DNA of 64,000 nucleotides from an uncultured beta proteobacterium (GTDB lineage: Bacteria > Pseudomonadota > Gammaproteobacteria > Burkholderiales > Burkholderiaceae_C): positions 1 through 64,000 of the forward strand of contig CAINUX010000093.1 in NCBI GenBank assembly GCA_903853895.1, in the 5' to 3' direction. Both the position numbers and the translations under genes were made by a program. The notes beneath the pieces are model-generated. The model saw only the letters and a list, made by a program, of their open reading frames with translations, was not told the origin of the DNA and searched no databases. Position 1 is the stretch's first letter, and each line of letters starts with the position of its first letter. Of the stretch, positions 28,261 through 56,809 are shown piece by piece.

Positions 28261-28275
28261 GCGCGCGCGTCGGCC

Positions 28276-29989: not shown

Positions 29990-30105
29990 AACCTTTTAGC
30001 ATGACCCGATTGCAACCGGAGATGTGCTCTGCCGACGTCACCTGTACGTGGCAAAATCAGCAAATTCCCATTCGGTCATTGCGACCGCACCACCCATTCC
30101 CAACC

Positions 30106-40191: not shown

Positions 40192-41292
40192 TCAGTACTG
40201 TTGCACATCGGTCAGGCCGAGCACGGCCGTGATACCCAGACCGGGCGCATCGCTTAAGTTGATCCACGGGCCGTTCATCGTCAGACCGCCAGTGATGGCG
40301 CTGCCCTGGCACAGCTGAGGCCCGTCAAGGTCAACCAGCGTGACGACGTCGGCATGGGCTACCGCAAAGTGCGCGGCGGCGGTGACGCTGATGCCGCTTT
40401 CCAGCATGCAGCCCACCATGCAGGTGCGGTGGTGCTGGCGCGTGAGGTTGGCCACTTCTATGGCCTGGCTGATGCCACCGGTTTTCATCAGCTTGATGTT
40501 GACGATGTCGGCGCTGTAGGTGCTCAAAATGTGCAGCGCGTCTTTTACCGAAAACACGGCCTCGTCGGCCAGGATGGGGGTGAGCGTGTGGTCGGTGACG
40601 AACTTCAACCCTGCCACGTCATCCGCCTTCACCGGTTGCTCGACAAACTCCAGTTCCACGCCTGCGGCCTCCAGCGCCTGTATCACTTGTACGGCCTGCT
40701 TGGGCGTCCATCCCTGATTCGCGTCCAGACGCAAGGCCACTTTGGGCCCCACGGCGTGGTGGATGGCCAGCGTGCTCTGCACGTCCTCGCGCCAGCTGCG
40801 CCCTCCGACCTTGACCTTCAGCGCATCAAAGCCTTCGGCCACTGCGCGCAAGCAGTCTTGCACCATGGTGGCGCTGTCGTTGACGCTGATCGTCACATCG
40901 GTTTTGAGGCGCGGTGTTCCACCCCCCAGCAACTGGTACAGCGGCACGCCAAATTGCTGGGCGCGCAAGTCGTACAGCGCGATCTCGAGTGCTGCCTTCA
41001 GGCTGGTGTGGTGCACGACGGCATGGTGCACGGTGGCCAGCAGTGCGTTGAAATCCAGCAGGTCCCGGCCCAGCAGCCGGGGCGCGATCAGGGCCAGTGC
41101 GGCGCGCATGGAACCCAGCAGGTCGCCGGTGATGACGGCCGTTGCCGGTGCTTCGCCGTAGCCCTTGAGACCAGTATCAGTTTCGATGATGAGGACCAGA
41201 TCGTGCACTTCGGTCACGGTGCGCAGGGCGGTCTTGAACGGCACTTTCAGCGGCAGCCGGATCTCGCCAACGGTGATACGTTGAATCAGCAT
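40192..41292 (-). CDS. L-Ala-D/L-Glu epimerase (dipeptide epimerase, enolase superfamily)
   Basis: This 366-residue cytoplasmic enzyme converts L-Ala-D-Glu, released from murein peptides, to L-Ala-L-Glu, which ordinary peptidases can use. It has the muconate lactonizing enzyme fold. The catalytic Lys pair is in ALKVKVGG (about 155-162). Metal ligands are Asp in LRLDANQGW, Glu in EFVEQP and Asp in LADEAVFS. The second catalytic Lys is in NIKLMKTGG, and a DLDGP motif near the C-terminus is typical of dipeptide epimerases. ATG at 41292 starts the canonical first strand. A copy of the hairpin repeat lies just upstream, between this gene and the kinase gene. Confidence 0.92.
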   Translation of the reverse strand: MLIQRITVGEIRLPLKVPFKTALRTVTEVHDLVLIIETDTGLKGYGEAPATAVITGDLLGSMRAALALIAPRLLGRDLLDFNALLATVHHAVVHHTSLKAALEIALYDLRAQQFGVPLYQLLGGGTPRLKTDVTISVNDSATMVQDCLRAVAEGFDALKVKVGGRSWREDVQSTLAIHHAVGPKVALRLDANQGWTPKQAVQVIQALEAAGVELEFVEQPVKADDVAGLKFVTDHTLTPILADEAVFSVKDALHILSTYSADIVNIKLMKTGGISQAIEVANLTRQHHRTCMVGCMLESGISVTAAAHFAVAHADVVTLVDLDGPQLCQGSAITGGLTMNGPWINLSDAPGLGITAVLGLTDVQQY

Positions 41293-41327: not shown

Positions 41328-41384
41328 TGCTATCGTAAATATAGCGACATAGTCATATTCCACGAGGGCTAAAGGCCAGTTTTT
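41328..41384 (+). repeat. Dispersed hairpin repeat, copy 3
   Basis: GCTAT (41329-41333) and ATAGC (41341-41345) form the stem, followed by an AT-rich spacer and the core ACGAGGGCTAAAGGCC with a T-rich end that reaches the stop codon of the kinase gene (41384-41386). It lies between two genes of the same operon direction. Confidence 0.75.
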
Positions 41385-42301
41385 CATATGGAAAGAGCCA
41401 GCCGGGCGGCCGTGACGTGGGCTGCCAGATCGGGCGTGGTGCGCAGCGCAATGTCTGCTGGCAGGGCCTGGCGCATGCCCTGCTCCAGCAGGGGGCTGAG
41501 CAGCAGCGCCCGCCCGCCAGCGGTCACCGGGCGCGGGCCAAACCGCTGGATCATGCTGTGTGCCAGCTCTCCCAGGGCGGTGCCGGCCCGCAGCAACAGG
41601 GCGTGCGCCAGAGGGTCGTCGTGCGCCGATGCGGCAACCTGCAGTGCCAGTTTCCCCATCGCGCCCCGGTCACTGCCGTAGACAAATGCCCGCGAGGCAT
41701 TCCAGTCGCTGCCACCGATGGCCGCGAACAGCCGCTGCGCCATGGGAGAGCGTTTCCAGGCACCGGGCGCGTGGTCTTCTTCCCGCCAGATGTGGGCCAT
41801 CGCCTCGCGCGCGATCCAGTAGCCACCGCCTTCGTCACCCAGCACCGCACCACGTCCACCGGCGCGGTGCTCCTGGCCCGCCTCATCAATGAAGGCCGAT
41901 ATCGCCCCGGTGCCGGCATACACCAGATAGCCGGCACCGGGCGCAAAGGCGGCCCGGTAGGCAATGTCCATGTCGTGGGTCAGCGTCGCGGACTGCGCTT
42001 GCACCGGGAGCTGTTCCTGCAGCAGCAACAGCAGGGCGGCTTTGTCCAGCTGCGCACCCAGCCCCGTGAAACCACCGTACAGCGCCAGTGAATGGCCTTG
42101 TGCCGCGGAGCGGACGGACTGGGCCAGGGCTCGTATCGCGCTGCGCAGATCCGCCAGACCCTGTGGGGAGTGCAACTGCAAACCACTCATGCCAGCCACG
42201 TGGCCCTGATCCAGCAGCGTGCCCCGTGTGTCGGCCAGCGCCCAGCGGGTTTGGCTGCCGCCTGCGTCGAGTCCAAGCCCCAAAACGGGTGCCGGGATCA
42301 C
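41384..42301 (-). CDS. BadF-type N-acetylglucosamine/N-acetylmuramic acid kinase
   Basis: The 305-residue ASKHA kinase is paralogous to the nagK product at 21722-22597. The phosphate loop LGLDAGGSQTRWAL lies at about 9-22, VYAGTGAISAF binds nucleotide, and GGRGAVLGDEGGGYWIAREA is the conserved sugar-site region. In a locus with murQ, a kinase that accepts MurNAc (as MurK does) would produce MurNAc-6-P for the etherase. GlcNAc may also be a substrate. GTG at 42301 overlaps the upstream glycosidase gene by 4 bases (GTGA). The stop codon touches the hairpin repeat. It is one of the central genes that separate this locus from simple murein recycling. Confidence 0.83.
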   Translation of the reverse strand: MIPAPVLGLGLDAGGSQTRWALADTRGTLLDQGHVAGMSGLQLHSPQGLADLRSAIRALAQSVRSAAQGHSLALYGGFTGLGAQLDKAALLLLLQEQLPVQAQSATLTHDMDIAYRAAFAPGAGYLVYAGTGAISAFIDEAGQEHRAGGRGAVLGDEGGGYWIAREAMAHIWREEDHAPGAWKRSPMAQRLFAAIGGSDWNASRAFVYGSDRGAMGKLALQVAASAHDDPLAHALLLRAGTALGELAHSMIQRFGPRPVTAGGRALLLSPLLEQGMRQALPADIALRTTPDLAAHVTAARLALSI

Positions 42302-43908
42302 GCAGCACTCCCTTTCGTCAAGGCGATGCCGACACGCGGTGATTCATTGCCGACCCGGTCCAGCGCGGAGATGACCAGGCCATTGAGCGGAGCGCTGGCA
42401 TCGCCCGACTGGAACGCCGCCAGCGTGAACCTGCGCTGTTGAACGACCTGAAACACCCATTGGGCTCCGTAGCGCTGCCACACCGCCCAGCGCAGCACGG
42501 GCTTGCTGGCACCCGGCGTGTCCAGCGTCAGCTCCACGCTGCCGTTTGGACGGGCATTCACCTGCACGGTGGGCGCAGCCGGGGTGCCGGCTTCAAGCCA
42601 GGGCGAGGATGGCACCAGGGCCACCGTGTCATAGGTTTGCGCCTTCAGGGTGTCAGCCAGCCCTTGGCGGTTTTGCAGCAGCGCCACCATGCTGAAGTGC
42701 ACATGGCCACTGCCGGGTGCACGGCTGCGCACGGCGGCAATTTGGTTGGTGATTTCTTCCGGTGCCCAGGCAGCCTTGGTGTCGGCACCGGGGGCTGCCA
42801 GTTTGCTCGTGAACAGGCCAGCGTAAACATTGCGGCCCTGAGGGTTTTGCGCATGCCAGTAGTCCAGCAGCGGAACAAAGGCCTGCGCGGTCTGGTCCAT
42901 GCGCCAGTACAGCTGCGGCACCAGGTAGTCCAGCCAACCGTGTTGCAGCCAGCGTTCGACGTCGGCATACAGCTTGTGGTACTGGCTGAAGCCCTGAATG
43001 CCGGGTGGGCGCAGTTCCGGGCGCCCCAGTCCAAACGGACTCACGCCAAAGCGTACCCAGGGTTTGGCGCTGCGGACCCCTGCATAGATGCGTTCTATCA
43101 GTGCATCGACCTGGCTGCGCCGCCAGTCGTTGCGCTCCAGTGTTCCGCCGCCGTCCACATAGCGCTGCCATGCGCTCTGATCGGGAAAGTCCACCTCCAC
43201 CTTGGGTTCCTGGCCTTGCGTCACCGGGTAGGGATAGAAGTAGTCGTCGATGTGGATGCCGTCTAGGTCATAGCGGCGCAGCACATCCATGAAGACGGCC
43301 AGTGTGTGGTCGGCAGCGGCGGGCTCGCCCGGGTCTATCCACAGCTGGTCACCGTAGGTTTTGACCCAGGCGGGCTGCGTCTGGCTCAGGTGGTTGGCGG
43401 CGGGGTTCGACTTGGCCTGGCTCTGCCGCGCCCGAAACGGGTTGAACCAGGCGTGCAGCTCCAGTCCCCGTGCGTGGGCCTGTTCAATCCACAGTGCCAG
43501 CGGATCGTAGAAAGGTTCCGGTGCCTGGCCCTGTGTGCCAGACAGGTATTCGCTCCACGGCTCCAGCGCAGATGCATAGAACGCGTCGGCACTGGTGCGG
43601 ACTTGCAGGATCAGGGCGTTGAGCCTGAGCGACACGGCCTGGTCCAGGATGGTGTGCATCTCGGCCTGCTGCTCGGCACTGCTCAATCCTTTGCGGCTGG
43701 GCCAGTCGATGTTGGCCACGGTGGCGACCCAGGCGGCGCGGAACTCGCGCGGTGCCGGTGGGGCCTGTGCGTCCAGCTCGGGGGCCAGGCGGTGGGACGT
43801 CGTGCCCAGACCTTCGATCAGGCTGCCGCAGCCATCCAGACCCGCTGCGATCAGCGTGGCTGCGCCGCTCACCCCCAGAATCCGCCGTCGGCTCCATGCT
43901 TGCATCAT
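42298..43908 (-). CDS. GHL10-type glycosidase, DigH-like (Tat signal)
   Basis: The protein of about 536 residues belongs to the GHL10 (DUF187) family. E. coli DigH of this family cuts peptidoglycan strands that lack stem peptides. Family blocks are visible: EFRAAWVATVANIDWPS, LNALILQVRTSADAFY, HAWFNPFRARQS, DGIHIDDYFYPYP with the acidic catalytic region, and YLVPQLYWRMDQ. A C-terminal beta domain (about 440-536) follows. The N-terminus has a twin-arginine motif SRRRILG with a hydrophobic stretch and LDGC, which could be a lipobox, so export by Tat as a lipoprotein is possible. ATG at 43908 lies 1 base after the nagX stop; ATG at 43905 is equally possible. Confidence 0.85.
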   Translation of the reverse strand: MMQAWSRRRILGVSGAATLIAAGLDGCGSLIEGLGTTSHRLAPELDAQAPPAPREFRAAWVATVANIDWPSRKGLSSAEQQAEMHTILDQAVSLRLNALILQVRTSADAFYASALEPWSEYLSGTQGQAPEPFYDPLALWIEQAHARGLELHAWFNPFRARQSQAKSNPAANHLSQTQPAWVKTYGDQLWIDPGEPAAADHTLAVFMDVLRRYDLDGIHIDDYFYPYPVTQGQEPKVEVDFPDQSAWQRYVDGGGTLERNDWRRSQVDALIERIYAGVRSAKPWVRFGVSPFGLGRPELRPPGIQGFSQYHKLYADVERWLQHGWLDYLVPQLYWRMDQTAQAFVPLLDYWHAQNPQGRNVYAGLFTSKLAAPGADTKAAWAPEEITNQIAAVRSRAPGSGHVHFSMVALLQNRQGLADTLKAQTYDTVALVPSSPWLEAGTPAAPTVQVNARPNGSVELTLDTPGASKPVLRWAVWQRYGAQWVFQVVQQRRFTLAAFQSGDASAPLNGLVISALDRVGNESPRVGIALTKGSAA

Positions 43909-43909
43909 G

Positions 43910-45058
43910 CTATACCTTGACAAACCAGCCCTTGCGCCACATGGCCCAGGCGATCACAAAATGGCATGCCGTGAACAGCAATGCAAACAACAGCGACGCG
44001 TCCACGGGTGCCAGGCCCAAAGCCTGAATGGGCGCATACAGCCAGGCCTTGAGCGTTTGTTGTGGTGCGGTGTGGATGAAGCCCAGGAGCTTTGCGACGA
44101 GGCCGGACAGGGCAAACAAAAACAGGGCGTTCATGCCAAACATCATCAGTGGCCGGGCCCAGTACGTTGCGGTCGCGCGGTCTGTGGGGTCGGGCATGGC
44201 GTCCAGCAGCCAGTAGAAAACACCCAGCACCAGGCAGGCCCACCCGCTCATCAAAATGACATAGGCCGGGCTCCACAGGCTTTTGTTGATGGGCATGCTC
44301 CATGCACCCAGCACCTGACCGATCCACAGCAGCCCCAGACCGGCCACCAGCATCCAGACGGTCTTCTCTATCGGCGCGCGCTGGCTCGCCAACCAATGTC
44401 CCACCAGCACGCCTGCCAGTTGGCTGGCCACTGCCGGTACGGTGGACAGCAGGCCCTCCGGGTCCCAAGTTTTGCTAGTGCGCCACAAATGGCCATCCAT
44501 CAGCGCGCGATCCAGCCAGGCGCCCACGTCTTCACCGGGCAGCAGGGAGCCGGTGTGCCACACGCCGGCCGCATCGGGCACGCTCACCCACATCTGTACA
44601 CCGGTGTAGGCCAGCAGCAAGCCGAGTAGCCAGACCAGCTGGGCACGCCAGCCGCAATACAACACGATGGGTGCTGCGAGGATGGTGCAAAGCCCCAGGC
44701 GTTGCAACACGCCAGGAATGCGCAGGGTCGCCAGATCGAAGTTAGGAATCAGGTTGAGCAACAGACCGATCCCAATGATGATGGCCCCGCGCTGCACGGT
44801 TTGTTGCAGCAGGTGCAACTTGTTGTCGCCCAGTGCAGCACGCCGACCCAGACTCAGAGTCATGGAGATGCCGCTGATGAACACGAAGAAGGGGAAGATC
44901 CAGTCAGTGAATGTCCATCCATCCCATGCAGCGTGCCTCAACGGTGCATACAGGTTGCCCCAGTCTCCCGGGTTGTTGACCAGCAGCATGGCGGCGATGG
45001 TGAAGCCACGGAACGCGTCCAGCGACAGCAGTCGTTGGTTCGGGCTCACTGGTCTCAT
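43910..45058 (-). CDS. nagX: NagX-like membrane acetyltransferase (heparan-alpha-glucosaminide N-acetyltransferase family)
   Basis: This 382-residue protein has about ten transmembrane helices and the family opening RLLSLDAFRGFTIAAMLLVNNPGDW with the periplasmic catalytic-loop region WDGWTFTDWIFPFFVFISG. Relatives in bacterial GlcNAc loci (NagX, DUF5009-type) are thought to N-acetylate glucosamine at the membrane. In a murein locus it could re-acetylate de-N-acetylated glucosamine or muramic residues, common in Gram-positive walls, before catabolism. This is an inference. It overlaps ampG by 4 bases and the GHL10 gene follows after 1 base. Confidence 0.83.
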   Translation of the reverse strand: MRPVSPNQRLLSLDAFRGFTIAAMLLVNNPGDWGNLYAPLRHAAWDGWTFTDWIFPFFVFISGISMTLSLGRRAALGDNKLHLLQQTVQRGAIIIGIGLLLNLIPNFDLATLRIPGVLQRLGLCTILAAPIVLYCGWRAQLVWLLGLLLAYTGVQMWVSVPDAAGVWHTGSLLPGEDVGAWLDRALMDGHLWRTSKTWDPEGLLSTVPAVASQLAGVLVGHWLASQRAPIEKTVWMLVAGLGLLWIGQVLGAWSMPINKSLWSPAYVILMSGWACLVLGVFYWLLDAMPDPTDRATATYWARPLMMFGMNALFLFALSGLVAKLLGFIHTAPQQTLKAWLYAPIQALGLAPVDASLLFALLFTACHFVIAWAMWRKGWFVKV

Positions 45059-46344
45059 ACCGGGGACCTCTTTCCAAACCCTTCAGGGATTTTGATCAAC
45101 GCGGCCATGGCAAAGGACGGAATGGTGGCCACCAGTACCCAGACGAAGAATGGCAGGTATCCGATCTGCTGTTGCAGCCAGCCGCTCCACATGCCCGGCA
45201 GCATCATCCCCAGGGCCATGAAGCCGGTGCAGATGGCGTAGTGCGCCGTCTTGTGTGGGCCATCCGCTACAAGAATCATGTACATCAGATAGGCGGTAAA
45301 GCCCAGCCCGTAACCAAACTGCTCCACGGCCAGCGCCGCGCTGACGATGACCACGTCCTGGGGTTGGGCCACAGCCAAAAATACAAACACGGCATTGGGT
45401 ACGTGCATGAGCAGGATCAGCGGCCACAGCGCGCGTTTCAATCCCACTCTGGAAATGACCCAGCCGCCGAGCAAGCCGCCCAGGGTCAGCGCAGTCAGTC
45501 CGACCGTGCCATAGGCAATGCCCACCGCCTTGGTGCTCAGCCCCAGGCCACCCAGCTCGGTCTTGTCCAGTAAGAATGGTGTGGCCAGCTTGAGCAGCTG
45601 CGCCTCGGGAAAGCGGTAGAGCAGCAAAAAGCCCAACACCACCAGAATGCCGGGCTTCTTGAAGAACTCTGCAAACACCTGAATGAACTCTTGGGATAGT
45701 TCGCCGACCTTGGCGTGGCCAGAGCCGCGCACGTCTGAAGCCGGTCGGGGCAGTACCAGCCAGTGGTACAGCGCCATCGCCACAAAGAGGGCGGTCAGCA
45801 CGGCAAATACGATGCTCCACGCGGTCTGCATGCTGCCGGTGCGCTCCTGCATTTCCCCGGCCAGATAGACCAGCCCACCTTGCCCACCGATATTGGCCAA
45901 CCGGTAAAACGTCGAACGCACCCCAACAAACGCAGCCTGGCTATGCTCCGGTAGCGCCAGCATGTAGAAACCGTCGGCCGCAATGTCGTGTGAAGCCGAT
46001 GCAAATGCCATCAGCCAGAACACCGCCAGCGTCATCTTGAAATACCCCGGGCCGGGAATCGTCAGTGCTACGCAGGCCAGCGCAGTACCCACCGCAAACT
46101 GCAGCGCCACGATCCACACCCGCTTGGTGCTGAACAACTCGATCAACGGTGACCACAGTGGCTTGATGACCCATGGCAAATACAGCCAGCTGGTGTAGAG
46201 GGCAATGTCGGTGTTGTTGACCCCCATGTTCTTGTACAGGATGACGGACAGCGTCATCACCACCACATAGGGAATGCCCTGCGCGAAGTAGAGCGAGGGA
46301 ATCCAGGCCCAGGGGTTGGGTGCCGTGCTGCGCTGGGCCGTCAC
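45055..46344 (-). CDS. ampG: AmpG-like muropeptide permease
   Basis: The 429-residue MFS protein has about twelve helices and AmpG motifs: WIPSLYFAQGIPYVVVM, KPLWSPLIELFSTKR, SASHDIAADGFYMLAL and LYRFPEAQLLKLATPFLLD. AmpG imports GlcNAc-anhydroMurNAc and its peptides in exchange for protons. The length fits short AmpG forms without the extra C-terminal helices. The gene sits directly after murQ with a GTGA overlap (start GTG at 46344) and directly before nagX (ATGA overlap). It is a paralogue of the permease encoded at 16032-17309, which probably has a smaller GlcNAc-type substrate. Confidence 0.87.
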   Translation of the reverse strand: MTAQRSTAPNPWAWIPSLYFAQGIPYVVVMTLSVILYKNMGVNNTDIALYTSWLYLPWVIKPLWSPLIELFSTKRVWIVALQFAVGTALACVALTIPGPGYFKMTLAVFWLMAFASASHDIAADGFYMLALPEHSQAAFVGVRSTFYRLANIGGQGGLVYLAGEMQERTGSMQTAWSIVFAVLTALFVAMALYHWLVLPRPASDVRGSGHAKVGELSQEFIQVFAEFFKKPGILVVLGFLLLYRFPEAQLLKLATPFLLDKTELGGLGLSTKAVGIAYGTVGLTALTLGGLLGGWVISRVGLKRALWPLILLMHVPNAVFVFLAVAQPQDVVIVSAALAVEQFGYGLGFTAYLMYMILVADGPHKTAHYAICTGFMALGMMLPGMWSGWLQQQIGYLPFFVWVLVATIPSFAMAALIKIPEGFGKRSPV

Positions 46345-47225
46345 GCCAGGTCCAGTGCGCGTCGCACGCTACCGCCTGCTGCAGCCAGTCGTTCGCGCGC
46401 GGTGGCCACACTGGTTCCCAGCCGGATGGCCACCACGGCCACCTTAACGTGGTGATCGCAGGCCAGCAGTGTCTCGCGGGCCAGTGCCTCGTCGCACCCC
46501 GCTGCGTGCATGGTCAAAGCAATCGCGCGCCGCACCAGTTTGGCATTGGTGGCTTTCAGATCGACCATCAGGTTGCCGTACACCTTGTTCAACCGCACCA
46601 TCAAGGCACTGGAGAACGTGTTCAAAGCCATCTTTTGGGCGCTTCCGGCCTTGAGCCGGGTGCTGCCAGAGATGACCTCGGGTCCGGTGTCCAGGGTGAT
46701 GCCGATGTCGGCCTGTTCGGTGACGGGGGCATGTGGGTTGTTGGCAAAGCCCACGGTCAGTGCCCCGGCACTGCGTGCGGCCTGCAAGGCACCCATTACA
46801 TAAGGTGTGGCCCCCGACGCTGCCAGTAGCAGGACTACGTCGTTTGCCGCCACGTGGACGGACAGGACGTCGCGTTCGCCCTGGGATGCATCGTCCTCTG
46901 CCCCCTCAACGGCTGTAAACATGGCGCCGGCACCACCGGCCAACAACCCGATGGCACGGTCGTGCGGCCAGGAAAAAGTGGGGTACAGCTCCACACTATC
47001 AAGCACCCCGAGGCGCCCGGATGTGCCCGCACCGACGTAAATCAGACGCCCGCCTTCCAGCATGCGCGCCGTGGCGGCATCCACGGCACCGGCGAGTTCG
47101 GCACCGGCGGCCCGCACCGCATCGACGGCATGGACCTGGTCCTCTATCAAGATCGACACCAGATCCGAAGTGCCATAGAGGTCCAACTCAGTGTGCTGGG
47201 TGCTGGGGCTTTCGGTGTTGAGCAT
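46341..47225 (-). CDS. murQ: N-acetylmuramic acid 6-phosphate etherase
   Basis: MurQ removes the lactyl ether from MurNAc-6-P to give GlcNAc-6-P and D-lactate. The 294-residue protein has the SIS phosphosugar loop YVGAGTSGRLGVLDSVEL, with the conserved Glu that corresponds to E. coli Glu83, and AVEGAEDD with the second catalytic Glu. LLLAASGATPYVMGAL, the STRLKAGSAQKMALN signature and the KVYGNLMVDL block follow. ATG at 47225 gives the usual N-terminal LxTE-type start (LNTESPST). The GlcNAc-6-P product feeds NagA of the locus at 19.9 kb. It follows the M14-type hydrolase gene by 4 bases. Confidence 0.94.
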   Translation of the reverse strand: MLNTESPSTQHTELDLYGTSDLVSILIEDQVHAVDAVRAAGAELAGAVDAATARMLEGGRLIYVGAGTSGRLGVLDSVELYPTFSWPHDRAIGLLAGGAGAMFTAVEGAEDDASQGERDVLSVHVAANDVVLLLAASGATPYVMGALQAARSAGALTVGFANNPHAPVTEQADIGITLDTGPEVISGSTRLKAGSAQKMALNTFSSALMVRLNKVYGNLMVDLKATNAKLVRRAIALTMHAAGCDEALARETLLACDHHVKVAVVAIRLGTSVATARERLAAAGGSVRRALDLA

Positions 47226-47229
47226 GTCT

Positions 47230-48210
47230 TTAATCACCAATAATCTTCCGGCTACTGGGGTGGGCCAAATAGAACCACTCGTTCCCTGCTTTGGCATTGG
47301 CATCGGGGAACACGATGTAGCCATCCCGTGGCGCGCGCACTGGCGTGCCGTCGTGGCGCACGCCAATGGCATCGCCTGCACTAACCCGGTCGTAGCTGGA
47401 CCAGGAGCGGGTGAAATGGTCATCCGCATGGTGGCGGTCAACGACCTCGGCCAGGCGTAAAAACTCAATGTCCGTCCGTGCGGGCGGTGGCGCTTCGTCC
47501 ACCAGTCCCAGATGCGCCAGCGTGTTGCGAATCGCCCGGTAGGCCACCTCGGGTGCGGCGAGGTCGTCGTGCTGGCCGCATTCCAGCGTGATCGCATAGC
47601 CACCCGTGGTGCGCATGTATTCGGTGGTGCCCATGCCGTAGCTGGGGTGGGTGCTGAGCAGCTCGGCGCGCTCGGTCGCTTGCGTGCGCGCCAGCCGCTG
47701 TTGTACGCCCACGGCGTAGGTGGAGAGCCAGCCCTCGACGATCCGCCGGGGCCCCAGCCGCAGTGCCATGGCCTGTTCCTGTGCGGCGTGGCGCACCGGC
47801 TCCAGATCAGCCGTATTGTTGGGTGGACCGATCATGGCGAATGGTTCGCCCCCGGCCCGGAAGGAATGCAGGTCCAGCAATACGTCATGCTGTGCCAGCA
47901 GGGGGCACAACACGTTGGCGATGCGGTCTTCGTTGTCCTGTGGCTGTTCGCTCGGTTGCAGGTTGCGGTTCAGGTTGCGGTCCCCGTTGCGTTCGCCCTT
48001 GCTGTAGGCCAGGGGGTTGGTGACCGGCACCAAGGTGAGGCTGCCGCGGACCACCGCGAGAGCACCACTCTCCAGCTCGGACAACACCCGTTCAATGCCC
48101 CGCGCGCCACAGGTTTCACTGCCATGCACGGCACCGGTCACAATCAAACGCGGACCGGGCAGTAGCGCCAAAAACTGGTGAATTCGTAGGTTCCCGGTGG
48201 GATATTTCAT
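47230..48210 (-). CDS. M14-type zinc hydrolase of the succinylglutamate desuccinylase/aspartoacylase family
   Basis: The 326-residue protein is a zinc hydrolase related to AstE and AspA. Zinc ligands are His29 and Glu32 in VTGAVHGSETCG and His115 in DLHSF. The catalytic Glu lies in AITLECGQHD (about 210-219). A C-terminal beta domain (about 275-326, GTPVRAPRDGYIVF) is typical. These enzymes hydrolyse amide bonds at acidic residues. In this locus the logical task is the gamma-D-Glu-diaminopimelate bond, done in E. coli by MpaA, also an M14 peptidase but of another subfamily. No signal peptide is visible, so it should be cytoplasmic. It is the first gene of the minus-strand murein operon, divergent from the AmiD-like gene. 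Confidence 0.8.
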   Translation of the reverse strand: MKYPTGNLRIHQFLALLPGPRLIVTGAVHGSETCGARGIERVLSELESGALAVVRGSLTLVPVTNPLAYSKGERNGDRNLNRNLQPSEQPQDNEDRIANVLCPLLAQHDVLLDLHSFRAGGEPFAMIGPPNNTADLEPVRHAAQEQAMALRLGPRRIVEGWLSTYAVGVQQRLARTQATERAELLSTHPSYGMGTTEYMRTTGGYAITLECGQHDDLAAPEVAYRAIRNTLAHLGLVDEAPPPARTDIEFLRLAEVVDRHHADDHFTRSWSSYDRVSAGDAIGVRHDGTPVRAPRDGYIVFPDANAKAGNEWFYLAHPSSRKIIGD

Positions 48211-48353: not shown

Positions 48354-48422
48354 TTGACATGGGGCTCACGCCCGTGCACGTAGTAAGCTGAAATGATATT
48401 TGTCCACTGGATGCACACCGTT

Positions 48423-49310
48423 ATGGAACCTGGTTTTTTTAGCCCTATGCGAGCCCTCAGGCGCTGCGCCACCAGTGGCAGTTGCATCCTGGCGGCGCTG
48501 TTGTTGAGTGCCTGCGCCTCGGGCGTGCGCATCGATACCAGCTACACATCGGAAAATCAGGACAGCCGGGCGCTGTTTCTCGTCCTGCACTACACGGTGG
48601 GAGATTTCGAGAGCTCGTTGCAGACACTGACCAAGCCCTCCAATCGCGCGGTGTCCAGCCACTATCTGGTGCGCGATGAGCCCGTGATCACCTATCGACT
48701 GGTGGATGAGAACCGCAGAGCCTGGCACGCAGGACCGAGCTACTGGAAGGGATTCAGCAACCTCAACGCCAGTTCCATTGGTATTGAAATTGTGAATGCG
48801 GGCCCGGTCACTGGCGCGGACGGGTCGGTCCGCTACAGTCCCTTTGGTCCCGCGCAACTGGATGAGGTGATTGCGCTGTGCAAGGAAATCGTGGCGCGCC
48901 ACCAGATCAAGCCGGATCGCATCATTGGGCATAGCGACATTGCACCGGGGCGCAAGCAGGACCCCGGCCCGCTGTTCCCGTGGAAACGCCTGGCCGACGA
49001 GGGGTTGATCGCGTGGCCGGACGCAGCCATGGTGGCGGCCAAGCGGCCGCTGTACGAATTTCAGCTCCCCGATGCGAAATGGTTCCAGGACAAGTTGGCC
49101 GACTTTGGCTACAACACATCCCGCAGCGGCGAGTGGGATGCGTTGACGCAAGACAGCCTGATCAGTTTTCAGATGAAGTACCGGCCCGAAAAATACGATG
49201 GCCGACCTGACGCTGACATCGCCGCACTGCTGGATGTGGCAAATAGCGCGCAAGGGATGGTTCTGTCCAAGCCCCTTGTAGGCAGCCAACCGTATACAGC
49301 CGGCTGGTAA
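48423..49310 (+). CDS. amiD: N-acetylmuramoyl-L-alanine amidase lipoprotein (AmiD/AmpD family)
   Basis: The amidase separates stem peptides from MurNAc or anhydroMurNAc. The protein of about 295 residues has a lipoprotein signal with lipobox LLSAC (Cys31), so it is anchored in the outer membrane as AmiD is. The amidase 2 domain has zinc His56 in LVLHYTVG, AWHAGPSYW, the SIGIEIVNAG block with the catalytic Glu, and the second zinc His and Asp/Lys region GHSDIAPGRKQDPG. A C-terminal peptidoglycan-binding domain (about 220-285, with ALTQDSLISFQMKYRP) follows. ATG at 48447 is an alternative start; neither has a good ribosome site. It starts the plus-strand half of the locus. Confidence 0.9.
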   Translation: MEPGFFSPMRALRRCATSGSCILAALLLSACASGVRIDTSYTSENQDSRALFLVLHYTVGDFESSLQTLTKPSNRAVSSHYLVRDEPVITYRLVDENRRAWHAGPSYWKGFSNLNASSIGIEIVNAGPVTGADGSVRYSPFGPAQLDEVIALCKEIVARHQIKPDRIIGHSDIAPGRKQDPGPLFPWKRLADEGLIAWPDAAMVAAKRPLYEFQLPDAKWFQDKLADFGYNTSRSGEWDALTQDSLISFQMKYRPEKYDGRPDADIAALLDVANSAQGMVLSKPLVGSQPYTAGW

Positions 49311-49318: not shown

Positions 49319-50557
49319 ATGGCACTTTCCTATATCTGGTCAGGCTTCTTTCTGGTGGGTTTTGCGGCCGCGTTGGCGCAATGGTTGTTCTTGGGTGATG
49401 TGGAGGTTTTCAAGCGCATCATCGACGGCACCTTCAGTTCTGCCAAGGTGGCCGTGATGGACATCGCGTTGCCGCTGGCCGGGGTCATGACCCTGTGGCT
49501 AGGGCTGCTCAACATAGGAGAGAAGGCAGGCGCCATCGAGTTTGTGGCGAAGTTGATAGGCCCGTTCTTCTCCCGCATCTTTCCAGGCGTGCCCAAGGAC
49601 CATCCGGCATCGGGCCACATGGTGATGAATTTTTCGGCCAATTTCCTGGGCCTGGACAACGCCGCCACGCCCTTTGGCCTCAAGGCCATGGACAGTCTGC
49701 AAAGCATCAACCCCAATAAGGAAGAAGCCAGCGACGCGCAGATCATGTTTCTGGTGCTGCAGACATCGGGCCTGACCCTCATACCCCTGTCCATCATTGC
49801 CCAGCGGGCCGTCTTGGGTGCCAAGGATCCCTCCGATGTCTTTCTGCCGATCCTGATTGCCACTTACGTAGCGACCGTGGTGGCCTTGGTCAGCGTGGCT
49901 ATTCGGCAGCGCATCAACCTGTTTGATCGCGTGATTGTCGGCTGGGTGGGAGGTATCACCGCCGCCATTGGTGGCATGGTGTGGTACTTGGTGAACTACA
50001 TGAGCCGCACCGAGATTGAACTCTTTTCCAAGGTGGCCAGCAACCTGGTGCTGGCGTCCATCATTGCTGCCTTTCTCATAGGTGCTATGCGAAAGAGGGT
50101 CAATGTTTTTGACGCCTTCATTGATGGCGCCAAGGGGGGCATTCAAACGTCGTTGACCATCATTCCGTATCTGGTGGGTATGCTGGTAGCCATCAGTGTG
50201 CTGCGCAACTCCGGTGTGCTGTCTTTTGTGGTGAGCGCATTCACCTGGGTATTTTCGCAACTGGGCATGAACACCGACTTCACACCGGCCCTGCCCACAG
50301 CCCTGATGAAGCCTGTCAGCGGCAGCGGTGCCCGCGCCATGATGCTCGATGCCATGCAGGTCTACGGGGTTGATTCCTTTGTCGGCCGGCTAGCCTGTGT
50401 GCTGCAAGGGGCGACCGACACCACCTTCTATATCATTGCGCTGTATTTTGGTTCAGTGGGCATCAAGCGGGCACGTTACGCTATTGGCTACGGTCTATTG
50501 GCCGATCTGGCTGGCGTGGTGGCTTCGGTTTGGGTTGCGTATCTATTTTTTCATTGA
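49319..50557 (+). CDS. SpmA/SpmB-like nucleoside-recognition (Gate) membrane protein
   Basis: The 412-residue protein combines two Gate domains that correspond to spore maturation proteins SpmA (N-terminal half) and SpmB (C-terminal half). The first half includes NFSANFLGLDNAATPFGLKAM. The second includes ALMKPVSGSGARAMMLD and LQGATDTTFYIIALYFG. About eight to ten helices are expected. In Bacillus, SpmA/SpmB affect spore cortex and core dehydration; their molecular role is not settled. Placed 8 bases after the amidase gene and before a LysR regulator, it is a candidate importer or exporter for murein peptides or D-amino acids. That is an inference. No spore genes are expected in this organism. 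Confidence 0.85.
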   Translation: MALSYIWSGFFLVGFAAALAQWLFLGDVEVFKRIIDGTFSSAKVAVMDIALPLAGVMTLWLGLLNIGEKAGAIEFVAKLIGPFFSRIFPGVPKDHPASGHMVMNFSANFLGLDNAATPFGLKAMDSLQSINPNKEEASDAQIMFLVLQTSGLTLIPLSIIAQRAVLGAKDPSDVFLPILIATYVATVVALVSVAIRQRINLFDRVIVGWVGGITAAIGGMVWYLVNYMSRTEIELFSKVASNLVLASIIAAFLIGAMRKRVNVFDAFIDGAKGGIQTSLTIIPYLVGMLVAISVLRNSGVLSFVVSAFTWVFSQLGMNTDFTPALPTALMKPVSGSGARAMMLDAMQVYGVDSFVGRLACVLQGATDTTFYIIALYFGSVGIKRARYAIGYGLLADLAGVVASVWVAYLFFH

Positions 50558-50566: not shown

Positions 50567-51469
50567 ATGCGGCTGCGACATATTGAGGTTTTTCACGCCA
50601 TCATGCAGGCGGGAACGATCACGGGTGCCGCACAGATACTGCATATTTCGCAGCCCGCAGTGACCAAGGTTTTGCAGCATTGCGAACTGCAACTGGGCAT
50701 TCCGCTGTTTAACCGGGTGCGGGGCAAGTTGTACCCGACACCCGAGGCGCAGCGGCTGCGCATAGAGATTGACAAGCTCAACAAGGATTTGGTCTCTATT
50801 CGCCGACTGGCATCCAACCTGCGCACTGGTGAGTTTGAGCTTTTGCGCCTGGTATCCACTCCGGCTCTCGGGGTTTCGGTCCTGCCATCGGCAATTGTGC
50901 AATGGTGCAACGCATACCCCCATGCACGCTGCACGCTAGCCACGCACCATACGCGCGAAATCATCAGTGCGCTGTTGCTGAATGAGGCCGATCTGGCCCT
51001 GTCACTGCACGACCCCTGCTATCCCGGCATCGTCGCCGAACCCATTGCTGCCGGACTGATGATGGCGCTGTGTCCATTGAATAGCCCTGAAGGCGCGGTG
51101 GGCGGAGCCCTGAAGGTCGCAGACATCCAAACGCCATTGATCGCCATCGCCGAAGGTGATCCGTTGGGGAATCTGGTGATGGGTGCTTTTGAGTCAGAGG
51201 ATATCCACCCCCAGAGTCGCATCACGGTACAGACCTACCAGTTGGCACGTTCCCTGGTGGAGGCCGGTGCCGGCATGACGGTGGTGGACCCGTTCACTGC
51301 GGCCGCTGCCGACCCTACGCGGGTGCGGGTGCGTGCGCTGGAGCCCAGCGTGCCGGTGCAGCTGTACCTGTTGACCGCGGTCAGCTCCCCCCCGGCGCAG
51401 TCGGCCCGGCGCCTTGTCAAATTCCTCGGCGAGACGGCGCGTGCCAGTCTGGCCACGGTCGGCGCGTAA
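50567..51469 (+). CDS. LysR-family regulator
   Basis: The 300-residue protein has an N-terminal winged HTH (RLRHIEVFHAIMQAGTITGAAQILHISQPAVTK), a linker helix and a periplasmic-binding-protein-like effector domain (about 90-295) with LRLVSTPALGVSVLP. LysR regulators of this subgroup often respond to amino acids or peptides; a stem peptide or D-alanine is a reasonable guess. It lies 9 bases after the SpmA/B-like gene and 3 bases before the vanX-type gene in the same direction, so it is embedded in the operon it may control rather than divergent from it, which is unusual for LysR genes. Confidence 0.87.
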   Translation: MRLRHIEVFHAIMQAGTITGAAQILHISQPAVTKVLQHCELQLGIPLFNRVRGKLYPTPEAQRLRIEIDKLNKDLVSIRRLASNLRTGEFELLRLVSTPALGVSVLPSAIVQWCNAYPHARCTLATHHTREIISALLLNEADLALSLHDPCYPGIVAEPIAAGLMMALCPLNSPEGAVGGALKVADIQTPLIAIAEGDPLGNLVMGAFESEDIHPQSRITVQTYQLARSLVEAGAGMTVVDPFTAAAADPTRVRVRALEPSVPVQLYLLTAVSSPPAQSARRLVKFLGETARASLATVGA

Positions 51470-51472: not shown

Positions 51473-52093
51473 GTGCTGCACAAGGCCAGCGTGATCGCGT
51501 GTGAAGACATTCCCACCCACGCCGATTTCATGGCGCTCAAGGATCTGGCGGCCATTGACGTGGATTTGCGCTACACCACCCGCAACAACTTTCTGATGCG
51601 GGTGCTGTACCAGGGCATTGACTGCGCCTACCTCCGGGTGGAGGCAGCGCTGGCGCTGGAACAGGCTGCGCGTTGGCTGTCAACCCACCGGCCCGGAACC
51701 CGCATTCGGGTACTGGACGCCCTGCGGCCCCAGCGGGTGCAGGAGCAACTGTACAAAGAGCTGGAGAACACGCCGCAGGCCATGTACCTGGCGCATCCAG
51801 AGCGAGGCTCGATTCACTCTTTTGGCATGGCGCTGGACGTGACCCTGCTGGACGAAACGGGCAAAGAACTGGACATGGGGTCTGCCTTTGATGAGATGAC
51901 TCTGGTATCCCATCCTGATCGCGAAGCCGAACACCTGGCCACGGGTGTGCTGACACCAAGTCATCTGGTTAGTCGCGGCTGGCTGCGCGCGGCCATGCGC
52001 GAGGCGGGGTTTCATGGCATTCACTCGGAGTGGTGGCATTTTGATTTTGGTGACCGCGATGTGGTGCGCCGCGACCTTCCCCGCGTCATGTAG
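51473..52093 (+). CDS. ddpX: D-Ala-D-Ala dipeptidase (VanX/DdpX type)
   Basis: This M15D zinc peptidase hydrolyses the free dipeptide D-Ala-D-Ala. The 206-residue protein has the motif SIHSFGMALDVTL with zinc ligands His115 and Asp122, and SEWWHF with catalytic Glu186 and zinc His189. LDALRPQRVQE supplies the conserved Arg that aids catalysis. No signal peptide is seen, so it should be cytoplasmic, as DdpX is. The start is GTG at 51473, three bases after the LysR stop; an internal ATG at 51530 is possible. In E. coli DdpX belongs to a D-Ala-D-Ala scavenging operon with a peptide importer; here it is inside a wider murein locus. Confidence 0.92.
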   Translation: MLHKASVIACEDIPTHADFMALKDLAAIDVDLRYTTRNNFLMRVLYQGIDCAYLRVEAALALEQAARWLSTHRPGTRIRVLDALRPQRVQEQLYKELENTPQAMYLAHPERGSIHSFGMALDVTLLDETGKELDMGSAFDEMTLVSHPDREAEHLATGVLTPSHLVSRGWLRAAMREAGFHGIHSEWWHFDFGDRDVVRRDLPRVM

Positions 52094-52108: not shown

Positions 52109-53173
52109 ATGACCGTACAACGACGCCAGTTTGTTCAGTCCCTGTCCGTTGGCGCAGCGACTATGGGAACTGCGGCACTGGGCGCAGTGCCGGCCGCTGG
52201 CACGGTGCCTGTGGTGTGGCCGACCTTGCTGGCTCCGCGATTGCGCCCGGGCGACACGCTGGGTTTGGTCAGCCCAGCCAATGCAACCTATGAGCGCGAG
52301 CCCCTTCAGATTGCCATCGAGGCCTTGCAGGCGCTGGGGTTCCAGGTCAAGGTGGGCACCCATGCGCGCGCACGCTATGGCCACTTCGCCGGAACGGATG
52401 CCCAGCGGGCCAGTGACATCAATGGTTTTTTTGCCGACGATGCGGTTGCCGGGCTGATTGCAGTGACCGGCGGCTCCGGCTGCAACCGGATCATCGACAA
52501 GCTGGACTACGCGCTGATACGCGCCAAACCGAAGTTCTTTGGCGGCTTCTCGGACCTGACGGCCTTGGTCAATGGCATTCAGCGCCAGACCGGGCTGGTG
52601 ACCTTCCATTGCCCGGTGGCCGAGTCGGAGTGGAACGATTTCAGCGTGGCCCACTTCAAGGCCATGGTGATGCAGGCGCAAGCGCCGCTGTTGCGCAACC
52701 CGACGGGTGAGCGTGGTGACAATCTGGTGCAAACCCAGGACCGGATCATGACGCTGCGCCCGGGCAAGGCACGTGGTCGCCTGGTGGGTGGAAACCTGTC
52801 GGTGCTGGCATCTCTGGCCGGTTCGCCCTATATGCCCGACTGCCGCGGTGGCGTGCTGTTCCTGGAAGACATCAACGAGTACATCTACCGGGTCGACCGG
52901 ATGCTGTCGACCTTGCGCCTGTGTGGCGCGCTGGACGGTCTGGCCGGAGTCGTCATTGGAAAGTTCACCAAGTGCGAGCCGGGTGAAGGAAAGTACGGCA
53001 CGCTGACCTTGGACGAGGTTTTTGATGACTACTTTCTGCCGCTCAATGTGCCAGTGTTTCGCGGGGCCATGATTGGCCACATCCGACGAAAATTCACGAT
53101 TCCGGTGGGGCTGGGTGTGGAAATGGACGCCGATGCGGGTACCTTGCAGTTGCTGGGTCCCGCCGTGCAATGA
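52109..53173 (+). CDS. ldcA: Murein L,D-carboxypeptidase (S66) with Tat-type signal
   Basis: LdcA removes the terminal D-Ala from the L,D bond of murein tetrapeptides. The 354-residue serine peptidase has nucleophile Ser148 in GGFSDLTAL, catalytic Glu253 in VLFLEDINEYIYR and His324 in GHIRRKFTIPVG. The N-terminus carries QRRQFVQSLSVGAATMG, a twin-arginine signal with a hydrophobic core and an Ala-rich cleavage region. Most LdcA proteins are cytoplasmic recycling enzymes, so export is notable. It follows the dipeptidase gene by 15 bases and overlaps mepA by 4 bases. Confidence 0.9.
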   Translation: MTVQRRQFVQSLSVGAATMGTAALGAVPAAGTVPVVWPTLLAPRLRPGDTLGLVSPANATYEREPLQIAIEALQALGFQVKVGTHARARYGHFAGTDAQRASDINGFFADDAVAGLIAVTGGSGCNRIIDKLDYALIRAKPKFFGGFSDLTALVNGIQRQTGLVTFHCPVAESEWNDFSVAHFKAMVMQAQAPLLRNPTGERGDNLVQTQDRIMTLRPGKARGRLVGGNLSVLASLAGSPYMPDCRGGVLFLEDINEYIYRVDRMLSTLRLCGALDGLAGVVIGKFTKCEPGEGKYGTLTLDEVFDDYFLPLNVPVFRGAMIGHIRRKFTIPVGLGVEMDADAGTLQLLGPAVQ

Positions 53174-54120
53174 ACCGTATGCCTGCCATGCCAACCATCC
53201 TTAAAGCCGGCGCCCTGTTGTTGTCTTTGTTTCTGGGCCATTGCTGGGCACAGGACAAAGGCACGCTCACACCCCAGCTGTTGCCCCCGTTGACCAACCC
53301 GGCGGACGCCAATACACCGGCCAAGGCCCTGTTTGGGCGGGCCATCGACGCGGCGGCGCTCGAGCCCGAGCCCATTGGGTTCTATTCCAGAGGGTGCCTT
53401 GCGGGTGCCCAGGCACTGGCGCCGGATGGCCCGCACTGGCAAGCCATGCGACCGTCGCGCAACCGCAATTGGGGTCACCCGGAGCTGATCCGTTTCGTGG
53501 AGCGCTTTGCACCGGCTGCGGCGCAGGCCAGTGGCTGGCCCGGCATTCTGGTGGGCGACATGGCACAACCGCGCGGTGGCCCCATGCTGACTGGCCACGC
53601 CTCTCATCAGTTGGGGCTGGATGCCGACATCTGGCTCAGGCCCATGCCTGTGCAACGCCTGTCTCGTGCGGAGCGCGAGGAAGAGTCGTCGTTCACCGTG
53701 GTGCGTGCAGACCGACTCGACACCGACACCACCACATGGACAGCGGCGCACCAGGCGGTGCTGCGCACGGCCGCCATGGACCCGCAAGTGCAACGCATCT
53801 TTGTGAATGCCGCCATCAAGCGCGCAATGTGCCGAACCGCGAAGGGCGAGCCGTGGTTGCGCAAGATTCGCCCGGAACACGGGCACGACTACCACTTTCA
53901 TGTGCGACTCTCTTGCCCCGCAGGTGCAGAGAAGTGCAGCCCGCAGGATCCGACACCAGAAGGAGACGGATGCGATGCCACCCTGGAATGGTGGTTTACC
54001 GAAGAAGCGCTGCATCCCAAACCGCCCGCCACCCCGCCGCCGCCCCTGACCCTGGCGAAATTGCCGTCCCAGTGTCGTCAGGTTCTGGAAGCAGACGGGC
54101 TGGTGAGGGTGCGTCAGTAA
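53170..54120 (+). CDS. mepA: Penicillin-insensitive murein endopeptidase
   Basis: MepA cleaves D-Ala-mDAP cross-links in sacculi. The 316-residue protein has a signal peptide (about 10-27, ending CWAQ) and the M74 zinc motif TGHASHQLGLDADIW with His143 and Asp151. A second ligand block, RPEHGHDYHFHVRL, contains His239/His242/His244. Conserved Cys pairs (near 76, 221, 249, 255 and 267) suggest disulfides in the periplasm. ATG at 53170 overlaps the ldcA stop. It is the last plus-strand gene of the operon and converges with the phosphodiester glycosidase gene, 17 bases away. Confidence 0.93.
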   Translation: MNRMPAMPTILKAGALLLSLFLGHCWAQDKGTLTPQLLPPLTNPADANTPAKALFGRAIDAAALEPEPIGFYSRGCLAGAQALAPDGPHWQAMRPSRNRNWGHPELIRFVERFAPAAAQASGWPGILVGDMAQPRGGPMLTGHASHQLGLDADIWLRPMPVQRLSRAEREEESSFTVVRADRLDTDTTTWTAAHQAVLRTAAMDPQVQRIFVNAAIKRAMCRTAKGEPWLRKIRPEHGHDYHFHVRLSCPAGAEKCSPQDPTPEGDGCDATLEWWFTEEALHPKPPATPPPPLTLAKLPSQCRQVLEADGLVRVRQ

Positions 54121-55053: not shown

Positions 55054-56535
55054 TCATTGCTGGCCCGCTACCCACTCCACAACGCTGTCCAGGACCGGGC
55101 TCCCTCTTTTTGAAGCTTCATCATGGTTCAGCAGTGCCACCACCACCCACATCCGGTCCTGTTGGTCCAGAACATAGCCGGCCAGAGCGACGACGTTGCG
55201 CAGGGTTCCGGTTTTCAGGCGTGCCCGCCCTTCCACCGCAGTGCCTTTGAAGCGGCGAGACAGGGTGCCGTCAAGGCCCGCGACCGGCAAGCTGGTCAGC
55301 AGTTCGGGCGCAAAGGGACCTTTGTACGCGGTGGCCAGGACCGCCGCCATTTGCTGCGCCGTGATGCGCTCGCTGCGCGACAGGCCTGAGCCGTTGTCCA
55401 TTGTCAGGCCATCCTTGGGAATGCCATGGGCCGCAAACCACTCGTGAACGGAACGTGCTGCGGCGGCCAGAGTGGGCTCGCCATCGACAGCAGCCTTCGC
55501 ACCCAGCCGCAGGTAGGTCAACCGGGTCAAAGGGTTGTCTGATCGTTTCATCATCCCGCGTGCCACCTCGGCAAAGGGGCGACCTTGGTGACCGGCCAGA
55601 ACCACCGCCTGGGCCGGGGTCGATCCCTCGATGTCCGGGCCACTGATCTGGCCCCCGAGTTGTCTCCAGATCTGGCGCACCACACGGGTGGTGACCCACT
55701 GGCGATCGACCAGGTTGAGATCCAGCTGCTGCGTGCAATTGCGTGGAAACTGGCCCTGGAAACGCAGTTGCTGGGTGCCCTGGGACACTTGCAATTCCGG
55801 CAACACCCAGGTGCTCTCCCATTTCGCGCATGCGTTGTCATTGAGCACCAGTGCGCGGGTGTCCAAGACCAGATCGGGCAGTGCGGGGCTGGTCCGTACC
55901 GACAGGGTCTTGTCGTCCGACTGCAGCACAAAGCCGAGCAGGCTGGTGTTGAGGTTCAGGGCATCCGGAATCACGTTGTACTGGAATTCCGGCGACTCAT
56001 CAAACGGCGCCAGGCCGACATCCATGCGGGACGGGTTGAAGAGGTTGCGGTCCACCACCAGGCCACCCTGGATGTGGGTGACGCCTTGTTCACGCACTTG
56101 GCGCAACATGCCCCACAGCACACCCCAGTCCAGGTCAGTATCCGCACCACCCCGCAGGTACAACGGGCCTTTGATGACTCCCGCTTCGGGCTTGTCGGTG
56201 GCCAGTAGGTCGGTGCGGCCCCGCGCATTGGTGCCCAGGCGCTCCAGGGCAACGATGGTGGTGACCACTTTCATGGTCGATCCGGGTTGCTGGGGCCGGT
56301 CCGGGTTCAGCCGCAATCCGCGCGTGGGGCCGGTCAGAGGATAGGCGACGACTCCCAACACCGCTTCCGTCATTTCTGCCTTTTGCAAAGCCGCGGTGAC
56401 CGTGGGTGGCAGGGGGCTGTCGTGTTGCAGCGCTGCGCAGCCCGTCAGTGCCAGAAGGCAGGCCGCCCCCAGAAGGCGGGCCAACGCCTGCCAACTGTAG
56501 CCGTCGCGAAGTTTGTCTTCTGGTGTCAGATGCAT
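55054..56535 (-). CDS. dacB: D-alanyl-D-alanine carboxypeptidase/endopeptidase, PBP4 type, lipoprotein
   Basis: PBP4 (peptidase S13) removes terminal D-Ala and cuts D-Ala-mDAP cross-links. The 493-residue protein has a lipoprotein signal with lipobox ALTGC (Cys33) and the active-site triad Ser86-Thr-Met-Lys89. SDN lies in KRSDNPLTRL (about 318-327) and KTGT in RLKTGTLRNV (about 450). The large insert between SxxK and SDN is typical of class C PBP4. E. coli DacB is soluble in the periplasm; this one should be membrane-anchored. ATG at 56535 starts a normal signal. It is divergent from the TonB receptor gene across 274 bases. Confidence 0.92.
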   Translation of the reverse strand: MHLTPEDKLRDGYSWQALARLLGAACLLALTGCAALQHDSPLPPTVTAALQKAEMTEAVLGVVAYPLTGPTRGLRLNPDRPQQPGSTMKVVTTIVALERLGTNARGRTDLLATDKPEAGVIKGPLYLRGGADTDLDWGVLWGMLRQVREQGVTHIQGGLVVDRNLFNPSRMDVGLAPFDESPEFQYNVIPDALNLNTSLLGFVLQSDDKTLSVRTSPALPDLVLDTRALVLNDNACAKWESTWVLPELQVSQGTQQLRFQGQFPRNCTQQLDLNLVDRQWVTTRVVRQIWRQLGGQISGPDIEGSTPAQAVVLAGHQGRPFAEVARGMMKRSDNPLTRLTYLRLGAKAAVDGEPTLAAAARSVHEWFAAHGIPKDGLTMDNGSGLSRSERITAQQMAAVLATAYKGPFAPELLTSLPVAGLDGTLSRRFKGTAVEGRARLKTGTLRNVVALAGYVLDQQDRMWVVVALLNHDEASKRGSPVLDSVVEWVAGQQ

Positions 56536-56796
56536 GGAAGCATTTTCACTACATTCCAGCGCCCGGTGGCTGCGCGCTGTGCGCATTCCTGCGACAGAGT
56601 TGTGTCAACGTATTCCCGCAAGTTATGCTTTCCCAGCAAGCATTCATTGCGTCAAAGCGACATTTCGGGGCTTTACCTATGGTTTGCACTACTTTTCTGC
56701 GTCAACATGCAGACAGTGCCGTACAGAAATTTTGCCGAGCTCAATTTCCGCCGTGGCGATTGTTTTTCCTGAATGTCACCCGTCAATTTGCAATCA

Positions 56797-56802
56797 AAGG
56801 AG
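56797..56802 (+). promoter_or_regulatory. Ribosome binding site that sets the receptor start
   Basis: AAGGAG lies 7 bases before the GTG at 56810. An ATG two codons later would have a 13-base spacing. The site supports GTG initiation for the TonB receptor gene. Confidence 0.7.
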
Positions 56803-56809
56803 TTCTACT

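Follow-up and report, generated by a model that had tools for sequence, protein, structure and literature searches.

What does a Gate-domain protein do amid genes for the breakdown of murein? The question arises from the window, the whole 64,000-nucleotide stretch of contig CAINUX010000093.1 (uncultured beta proteobacterium) that was analysed here. Gate proteins are already known, and a spore role of SpmA and SpmB has been described yet not explained: they are listed among sporulation genes without activity data (PMC3533761), and how they work is described as not understood (PMC5376575). A sequence-only reading of the window had proposed that an SpmA/SpmB-like fusion moves products released from murein, and had offered linkage of its homologues to murein genes across proteobacteria as a check.

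At the level of the protein, that reading was accurate. The open reading frame starts with ATG, and the Pfam Gate model (PF07670) matched its product in two stretches at 92 bits (gathering cut-off 29.6). In a profile search of the source genome (292 contigs, 93.55% complete), each half individually exceeded the cut-off, with 56.1 and 54.4 bits, and the other Gate matches fell in one gene, on contig C274, which we read by eye from its sequence as FeoB. An identity as FeoB iron transporter was rejected for the window protein, since the N-terminal GTPase domain is absent from its 412 amino acids (Pfam). CNT nucleoside transporters carry N- and C-terminal Pfam domains along with Gate; both are absent here, Gate being the sole Pfam match at E ≤ 0.001, and membership in that family was also rejected. 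No NCBIfam model scored above its cut-off against the protein, in a library that may or may not include SpmA/SpmB models; PRK10519, which we take to be YjiG, matched the C-terminal half with 28.9 bits (cut-off 111). We likewise take SpmA and SpmB to be Gate proteins. Of 59 class-wide loci, 57 had a Gate ORF called by script (all but L037 and L080); in 16 of these, including the interrupted L063, two ORFs covered the N and C halves in A-B order. Thus, 'SpmA/SpmB-like fusion' seems a fair label. Profile-profile alignment of the two halves found no similarity with shallow profiles (Neff about 2), though both match the Gate model, and the sequence search for solved relatives returned none that was credible (best E 0.19, an endonuclease).

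The neighbours named before were confirmed by Pfam: an amidase upstream, and LysR, dipeptidase, LdcA and MepA downstream (Table 1). These six genes are co-directional, with gaps of 8, 9, 3, 15, and -4 bases, so they likely form one transcription unit; the gaps, as those of the Gate-dacB pairs described below, depend on choosing the first start codon. The cluster exceeds the earlier list and adds MurQ, an AmpG-type MFS transporter, NagX-like, NagK-like, GHL10 and epimerase-like proteins, DacB, a TonB receptor, and DadA. The window DacB lies about 4.5 kb from Gate on the opposite strand, and same-strand pairing was seen in relatives only. Export signals (lipobox, signal-like and Tat-like) were read by eye from the translations, predictor-free. 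LdcA is probably exported because of its Tat-like N-terminus, and no evident signal peptide was seen by eye on DdpX, the AstE-type hydrolase, or the epimerase-like protein. The AstE/AspA-type hydrolase is possibly a murein-peptide amidase.

Table 1. Features of the murein and amino-sugar cluster in the window, with profile scores in bits and the cut-off of each model where given.
Feature	Position	Strand	Evidence
L-Ala-D/L-Glu epimerase-like enolase-superfamily protein	40192..41292	-	NF041118 223.2, below cut-off 500
NagK-like (BadF/BadG) kinase	41384..42301	-	PF01869; NF046058 58.5, below cut-off 370
GHL10 glycosyl hydrolase-like protein	42298..43923	-	PF02638 208; lipobox-like start by eye
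NagX-like transmembrane acetyltransferase	43910..45058	-	PF07786; NF046061 155.6, below cut-off 480
AmpG-type MFS transporter	45055..46344	-	TIGR00901 186.8, below cut-off 350
MurQ N-acetylmuramic acid 6-phosphate etherase	46341..47225, start approximate	-	TIGR00274 312.8, above cut-off 302
AstE/AspA-type zinc hydrolase	47230..48210	-	PF24827
AmiD-type N-acetylmuramoyl-L-alanine amidase with PG-binding domain	48393..49310	+	PF01510, PF01471; lipobox-like LLLSAC by eye
Gate-Gate (SpmA-SpmB-like) fusion, predicted membrane transporter	49319..50557	+	412 aa, PF07670 in two stretches
LysR-family regulator	50567..51469	+	PF00126, PF03466; PRK11013 125.4, below cut-off 288
D-Ala-D-Ala dipeptidase (DdpX/VanX type)	51473..52093	+	PF01427; PRK10178 129.2, below cut-off 176
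LD-carboxypeptidase LdcA	52109..53173	+	PF02016, PF17676; Tat-like N-terminus QRRQFVQS by eye
MepA murein endopeptidase	53170..54120	+	PF03411; PRK09429 355.9, above cut-off 272; signal-peptide-like start by eye
S13 DD-carboxypeptidase/endopeptidase DacB (PBP4)	55054..56586	-	TIGR00666 186.9, above cut-off 107.8; PF02113; lipobox-like start by eye
TonB-dependent outer-membrane receptor	56801..59653, start approximate	+	named by eye; homologues near Gate in relatives
D-amino acid dehydrogenase (DadA type)	59734..60981	-	PRK00711 400.6, above cut-off 383

Counting the window's own genome each time, Gate relatives were found in 60 of 369 genomes of the class draw, 101 of 299 of the family draw, and 10 of 100 of the genus draw. 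In the family draw, matches of at least 74% occurred in five genomes including the window's, and the remaining full-length matches reached at most 53%. A scan of named genomes covered the best 80 of 571 relatives, so the clade is partly sampled. It gave 47 counted betaproteobacterial loci of 67–92% identity (Comamonadaceae and Oxalobacteraceae among the names, some titled just Burkholderiales or Proteobacteria) and 33 others of 53–64% (Bacteroidota and Chlorobiota, one titled 'uncultured bacterium').

We counted murein linkage by tblastn with ten murein-type window proteins within 10.5 kb of Gate, which made the counts independent of the greedy scripts that called ORFs and mislabelled some (a shadow ORF over the window DdpX and LdcA; the Gate ORF of L163 lost). 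Within the top 80 of 571 relatives, the 47 betaproteobacterial loci included 36, 31, and 22 with at least one, two, and three murein types, respectively; for the 33 loci on the Bacteroidota side, where the window-derived searches may have lower sensitivity, all three counts were 0. The same-family branch of about 50% identity gave 2, 1, and 1 of 36 loci, taken from 96 family genomes with a match outside the clade (mostly high-identity and non-random), and the class-wide loci gave 1, 0, and 0 of 59. Many loci sit on cut-short contigs, which lowers all these counts, and Fisher values for them are not probabilities of independent events because the loci are related. The murein link of Gate is real within the betaproteobacterial clade of the window protein, independently of gene order. 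As a general proteobacterial rule it was rejected, given the single same-family locus outside the clade, and none class-wide, with at least two murein genes. Clustering of the neighbours of the general Gate family yielded just scattered or lineage-bound groups. Besides, DdpX and any Gate homologue occurred together in 21 of 299 family genomes, with about 17 expected by chance; this co-occurrence is thus unsupported and counts against the reading we prefer.

Linkage that persists while gene order changes is more telling than the Fisher statistics. Within the best 80 of 571 relatives, the group of the window keeps the order amidase-Gate-LysR-DdpX-LdcA-MepA, some relatives being short of certain genes. 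All 18 loci titled Massilia, Janthinobacterium or Rugamonas have Gate followed by a DacB homologue on the same strand, the two genes being -17 to 23 bases apart. In many of these loci a family-5 binding protein is encoded divergently (by clustering in 16; Pfam on L173 only). Clustering placed a NagA-like gene divergent from a Gate-x-Ddl series in L153, L158, L160, and L186, and in L177 with MurQ instead; the Ddl of L158 was confirmed by Pfam. The protein between Gate and Ddl is conserved in these five loci, and its copy in L158 (4993-6015) had no Pfam match. Other orders are NagK-amidase-AmpG-Gate (L159), LdcA-Gate (L157), an amidase divergent from Gate (L182 and L183), and Gate ahead of peptide ABC genes, DacB and DdpX lying beyond these (L150 and L152). 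In L120, a 49%-identical Gate of another branch sits among homologues of the TonB receptor, LysR, DdpX, LdcA, DacB, AmpG, and NagX. Clustering dropped L163, L165, L166, L174, L175, and L180 from the Gate group; they were placed by a separate analysis of the loci.

Murein linkage is absent from the seven Undibacterium-titled loci among the same 80, which, like its absence on the Bacteroidota side, also goes against the preferred reading. One of them, L148, has an M14 zinc carboxypeptidase gene (11397-13319) beside Gate and no murein cluster, and the protein cluster that holds this carboxypeptidase recurs in seven loci. In L102, a gamma-glutamyltranspeptidase gene (7227-10325) lies directly upstream of an approximately 80%-identical Gate on the same strand.

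Within the genus, Gate was present at 86% or above in nine of 100 genomes (in G734 as two contig pieces), and a tenth genome had a 37% relative. The cluster LysR was found in eight genomes and DacB of at least 61% also in eight, all of them within the nine Gate-positive ones. The genome without a LysR match was G712, where the contig ends inside LysR (L223), and the one without DacB was G687, an assembly of 980 contigs. Another 33 genus genomes had DacB of 32–38% only. In G712, G716, and G675 the DacB of at least 61% lies on a different contig from Gate, hence its nearness is open to doubt there. In this genus draw, the presence of Gate thus goes along with that of LysR and of the additional DacB.

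A quick tree of 98 of the 170 available rows (L211 left out) was built with SH-aLRT support alone and a midpoint root, and carries a long-branch warning for the class rows. Its 51 betaproteobacterial sequences formed one group (support 99, starred), nested within a wider Bacteroidota-side group. Runella and Dyadobacter neighbour the betaproteobacterial group, with a joint branch support of 98 (starred), and the proteobacterial sequences of about 50% identity fell outside this grouping. The tree is most simply read, and likely so, as showing that Burkholderiales received the Gate gene by lateral transfer out of Bacteroidota.

The AF2 model of the Gate protein, made with 48 sequences, had a mean pLDDT of 85.3 and a pTM of 0.82, and by eye repeated its helix pattern in both halves. 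The Foldseek matches were transporters for phosphate, dicarboxylate, and arsenite and those of the AbgT and TRAP types; only one had an E-value below 0.001 (7.1e-4). VIA-align listed 50 rows, of which the first 49 are SLC13, CNT, Pho90, ArsB, TRAP, AbgT or MleN-type transporters by title, with Z from 13.4 to 7.7 and rmsd of 4.2–7.0 Å; the next row had a Z of 4.9. According to the program's own note, helical models with Z below about 13 may reflect a mere common arrangement, and only the first two rows, NaDC1 (13.4) and CNT3 (13.2), clear that value. The transporter families matched here are of elevator type. The predicted fold thus resembles that of CNT/SLC13-type secondary transporters, a likeness that by itself proves no function. 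Across the whole aligned family, conservation is strong at or next to the breaks between helices, e.g., at L112, N114-P118, S334-G335, and T368-T369, so the core chemistry may be common to murein-linked and unlinked members.

The Gate protein shares features with several known systems. As in SpmA/SpmB of Bacillus and Clostridium, it has two Gate-type halves, in A-B order where split in its relatives. Relatives in the 18 loci mentioned above also pair with a DD-carboxypeptidase gene (Gate-dacB), and in B. subtilis the operon dacB-spmA-spmB combines such a gene with spmA and spmB downstream of it (PMC13188902). Unlike SpmA and SpmB, the window protein is fused in one chain and set in a murein-catabolism island, and its DacB partner is of the S13 type, whereas sporulation DacB proteins carry S11 domains, according to a statement on Clostridium in PMC5376575. 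For AmpG, described as an MFS protein for anhydro-muropeptides in a paper that never mentions SpmA (PMC13046382), the likeness lies in the setting, since the window cluster holds AmpG-type, MurQ, NagK-like, LdcA, and epimerase-like genes of peptidoglycan recycling; the Gate protein, however, is unrelated to AmpG and would serve another product. In E. coli, YjiG is annotated as Gate family and the YjiH/YjiG gene pair lies beside the peptidase gene iadA, and the presumed YjiG model matches the C-terminal half below its cut-off; the differences are two separate genes, another peptidase, and no murein hydrolase annotated within the 12 kb shown. CNT and SLC13/DASS symporters are alike in the fold match; as differences, Gate is the sole Pfam match of the window protein, and identity in their VIA-align rows is 7–14%.

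We consider the Gate fusion an inner-membrane secondary transporter that would import a small murein product, most likely free D-alanine, with a probability of roughly one half; import of D-alanine or peptides, taken together, is quite probable. Clade linkage and the transporter-like predicted fold speak for the murein-product transporter first suggested, and the missing linkage in proteobacterial relatives at large speaks against it. Transport itself, its direction, the coupling ion, and the substrate are all inferred. D-alanine is released by DacB and LdcA and consumed by Ddl and DadA. For this reason, and because spmA and spmB follow dacB in Bacillus, it is favoured as substrate; the comparative evidence suggests D-alanine first and a short murein peptide second, with a little more for D-alanine than for the tripeptide. 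The protein would probably be an elevator-type carrier whose two fused halves are equivalent to SpmA and SpmB. Burkholderiales probably acquired its gene from Bacteroidota and would have recruited it into murein-catabolism islands. There, exported enzymes, namely the lipoprotein-like amidase, MepA, DacB, and the apparently Tat-exported LdcA, would release D-alanine along with short peptides into the periplasm. AmpG would import the sugar-linked fragments, and the Gate permease what AmpG cannot, most likely free D-alanine, which in the cytoplasm would be oxidised by DadA or, in relatives, relinked by Ddl.

In a tentative alternative, the imported product is a short murein peptide, either D-Ala-D-Ala destined for DdpX or L-Ala-D-Glu-mDAP, and Gate does the work of a DppA/MppA-type binding protein together with an ABC permease. 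Imported peptides would be the substrates of DdpX, the AstE-type hydrolase, and the epimerase-like protein, on which no signal peptide is evident by eye. Moreover, in 11 of 40 family DdpX loci (40 fetched of 51), a protein that clusters with the family-5 binding proteins stands beside LysR where Gate would otherwise be (Pfam on L239 only), and nine of those 11 are in genomes without any Gate match. The iadA dipeptidase gene beside yjiHG, the M14 carboxypeptidase of Undibacterium (L148), and the gamma-glutamyltranspeptidase of L102 likewise favour short peptides; iadA and the L102 gene fit dipeptides or amino acids generally, not D-alanine alone, and so count against our choice of substrate. 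However, adjacency to DacB and Ddl is better explained by D-alanine, and a peptide role would be redundant where Gate directly precedes Dpp-type ABC genes (L150 by Pfam, L152 and L154 by gene order) or adjoins a family-5 binding protein (L173). Several Gate loci (L150, L145, L173) contain genes for peptide ABC import or for the corresponding binding protein, which goes against D-alanine import too; since the two systems co-occur there, both may be needed, for different products.

That Gate is a general transporter of nucleosides, amino acids or ions merely travelling with the island seems improbable. In its favour, murein linkage is missing from most relatives beyond the clade, and linked and unlinked branches hardly differ at family-wide positions, with three clade-specific ones by chosen thresholds. 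Yet linkage survives repeated rearrangement, a second Gate branch joined the same type of cluster (L120), and the cluster LysR and DacB track Gate within the genus. The least probable of the readings weighed here is export of D-amino acids or another envelope precursor, tuning cross-linking from outside. The catabolic setting, with MurQ, DadA, LdcA, AmpG-type and NagK-like genes, argues against it. It would agree with the fold match 4r1i, titled as an efflux pump (Foldseek and VIA-align), with an spmAB sporulation phenotype that concerns core water (PMC13188902 and PMC5376575), and with a vesicle-production screen in another bacterium, which recovered an insertion separating a Gate-domain gene from its promoter and from that of a neighbour gene.

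Import of D-alanine or murein peptides, if true, would give peptidoglycan recycling a transporter in addition to AmpG and the ABC systems. A fused Gate tied to murein catabolism in a non-spore setting gives a testable list of substrates in tractable Gram-negative bacteria. Because the Bacillus genes for SpmA and SpmB follow dacB, the finding in the window clade is also relevant to what these two proteins do, which is still unexplained. It is doubtful, though conceivable, that the whole SpmA/SpmB (Gate) family are permeases for D-alanine or a D-Ala-terminated small murein product, clearing what DD- and LD-carboxypeptidases release; if true, the unsolved part that SpmAB plays beside DacB in spore formers would be explained. 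Among open-licence PubMed Central papers, we found no link of Gate to murein catabolism, which is weak evidence of absence, and no report of the clade-restricted reshuffled murein linkage, the probable Bacteroidota origin, or the Massilia-type Gate-dacB pair.

Elsewhere in the window, further genes touch on the same subject. The best NCBIfam model of the cluster LysR is PRK11013, which we take to be the E. coli LysR that senses diaminopimelate; a murein-derived effector is conceivable for the cluster LysR, and a scan for LysR boxes gave 530 matches, its pattern being too loose to inform. A family-5 solute-binding protein gene followed by a Dpp-type permease gene (by eye) lies at 27241-29952, about 20 kb from Gate, and this pair is possibly a peptide importer of the Gate gene's island. 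A second amino-sugar cluster at 15084-22690 on the reverse strand contains a GH3 NagZ-like gene above its cut-off and AmpG-like MFS genes; by eye, SIS, NagA-like, GntR-like, and kinase genes were recognised there as well. Finally, a MurA-like gene (by eye) is found at 30001-31383, and similar genes occur upstream of the Gate gene in L150, L152, and L154.
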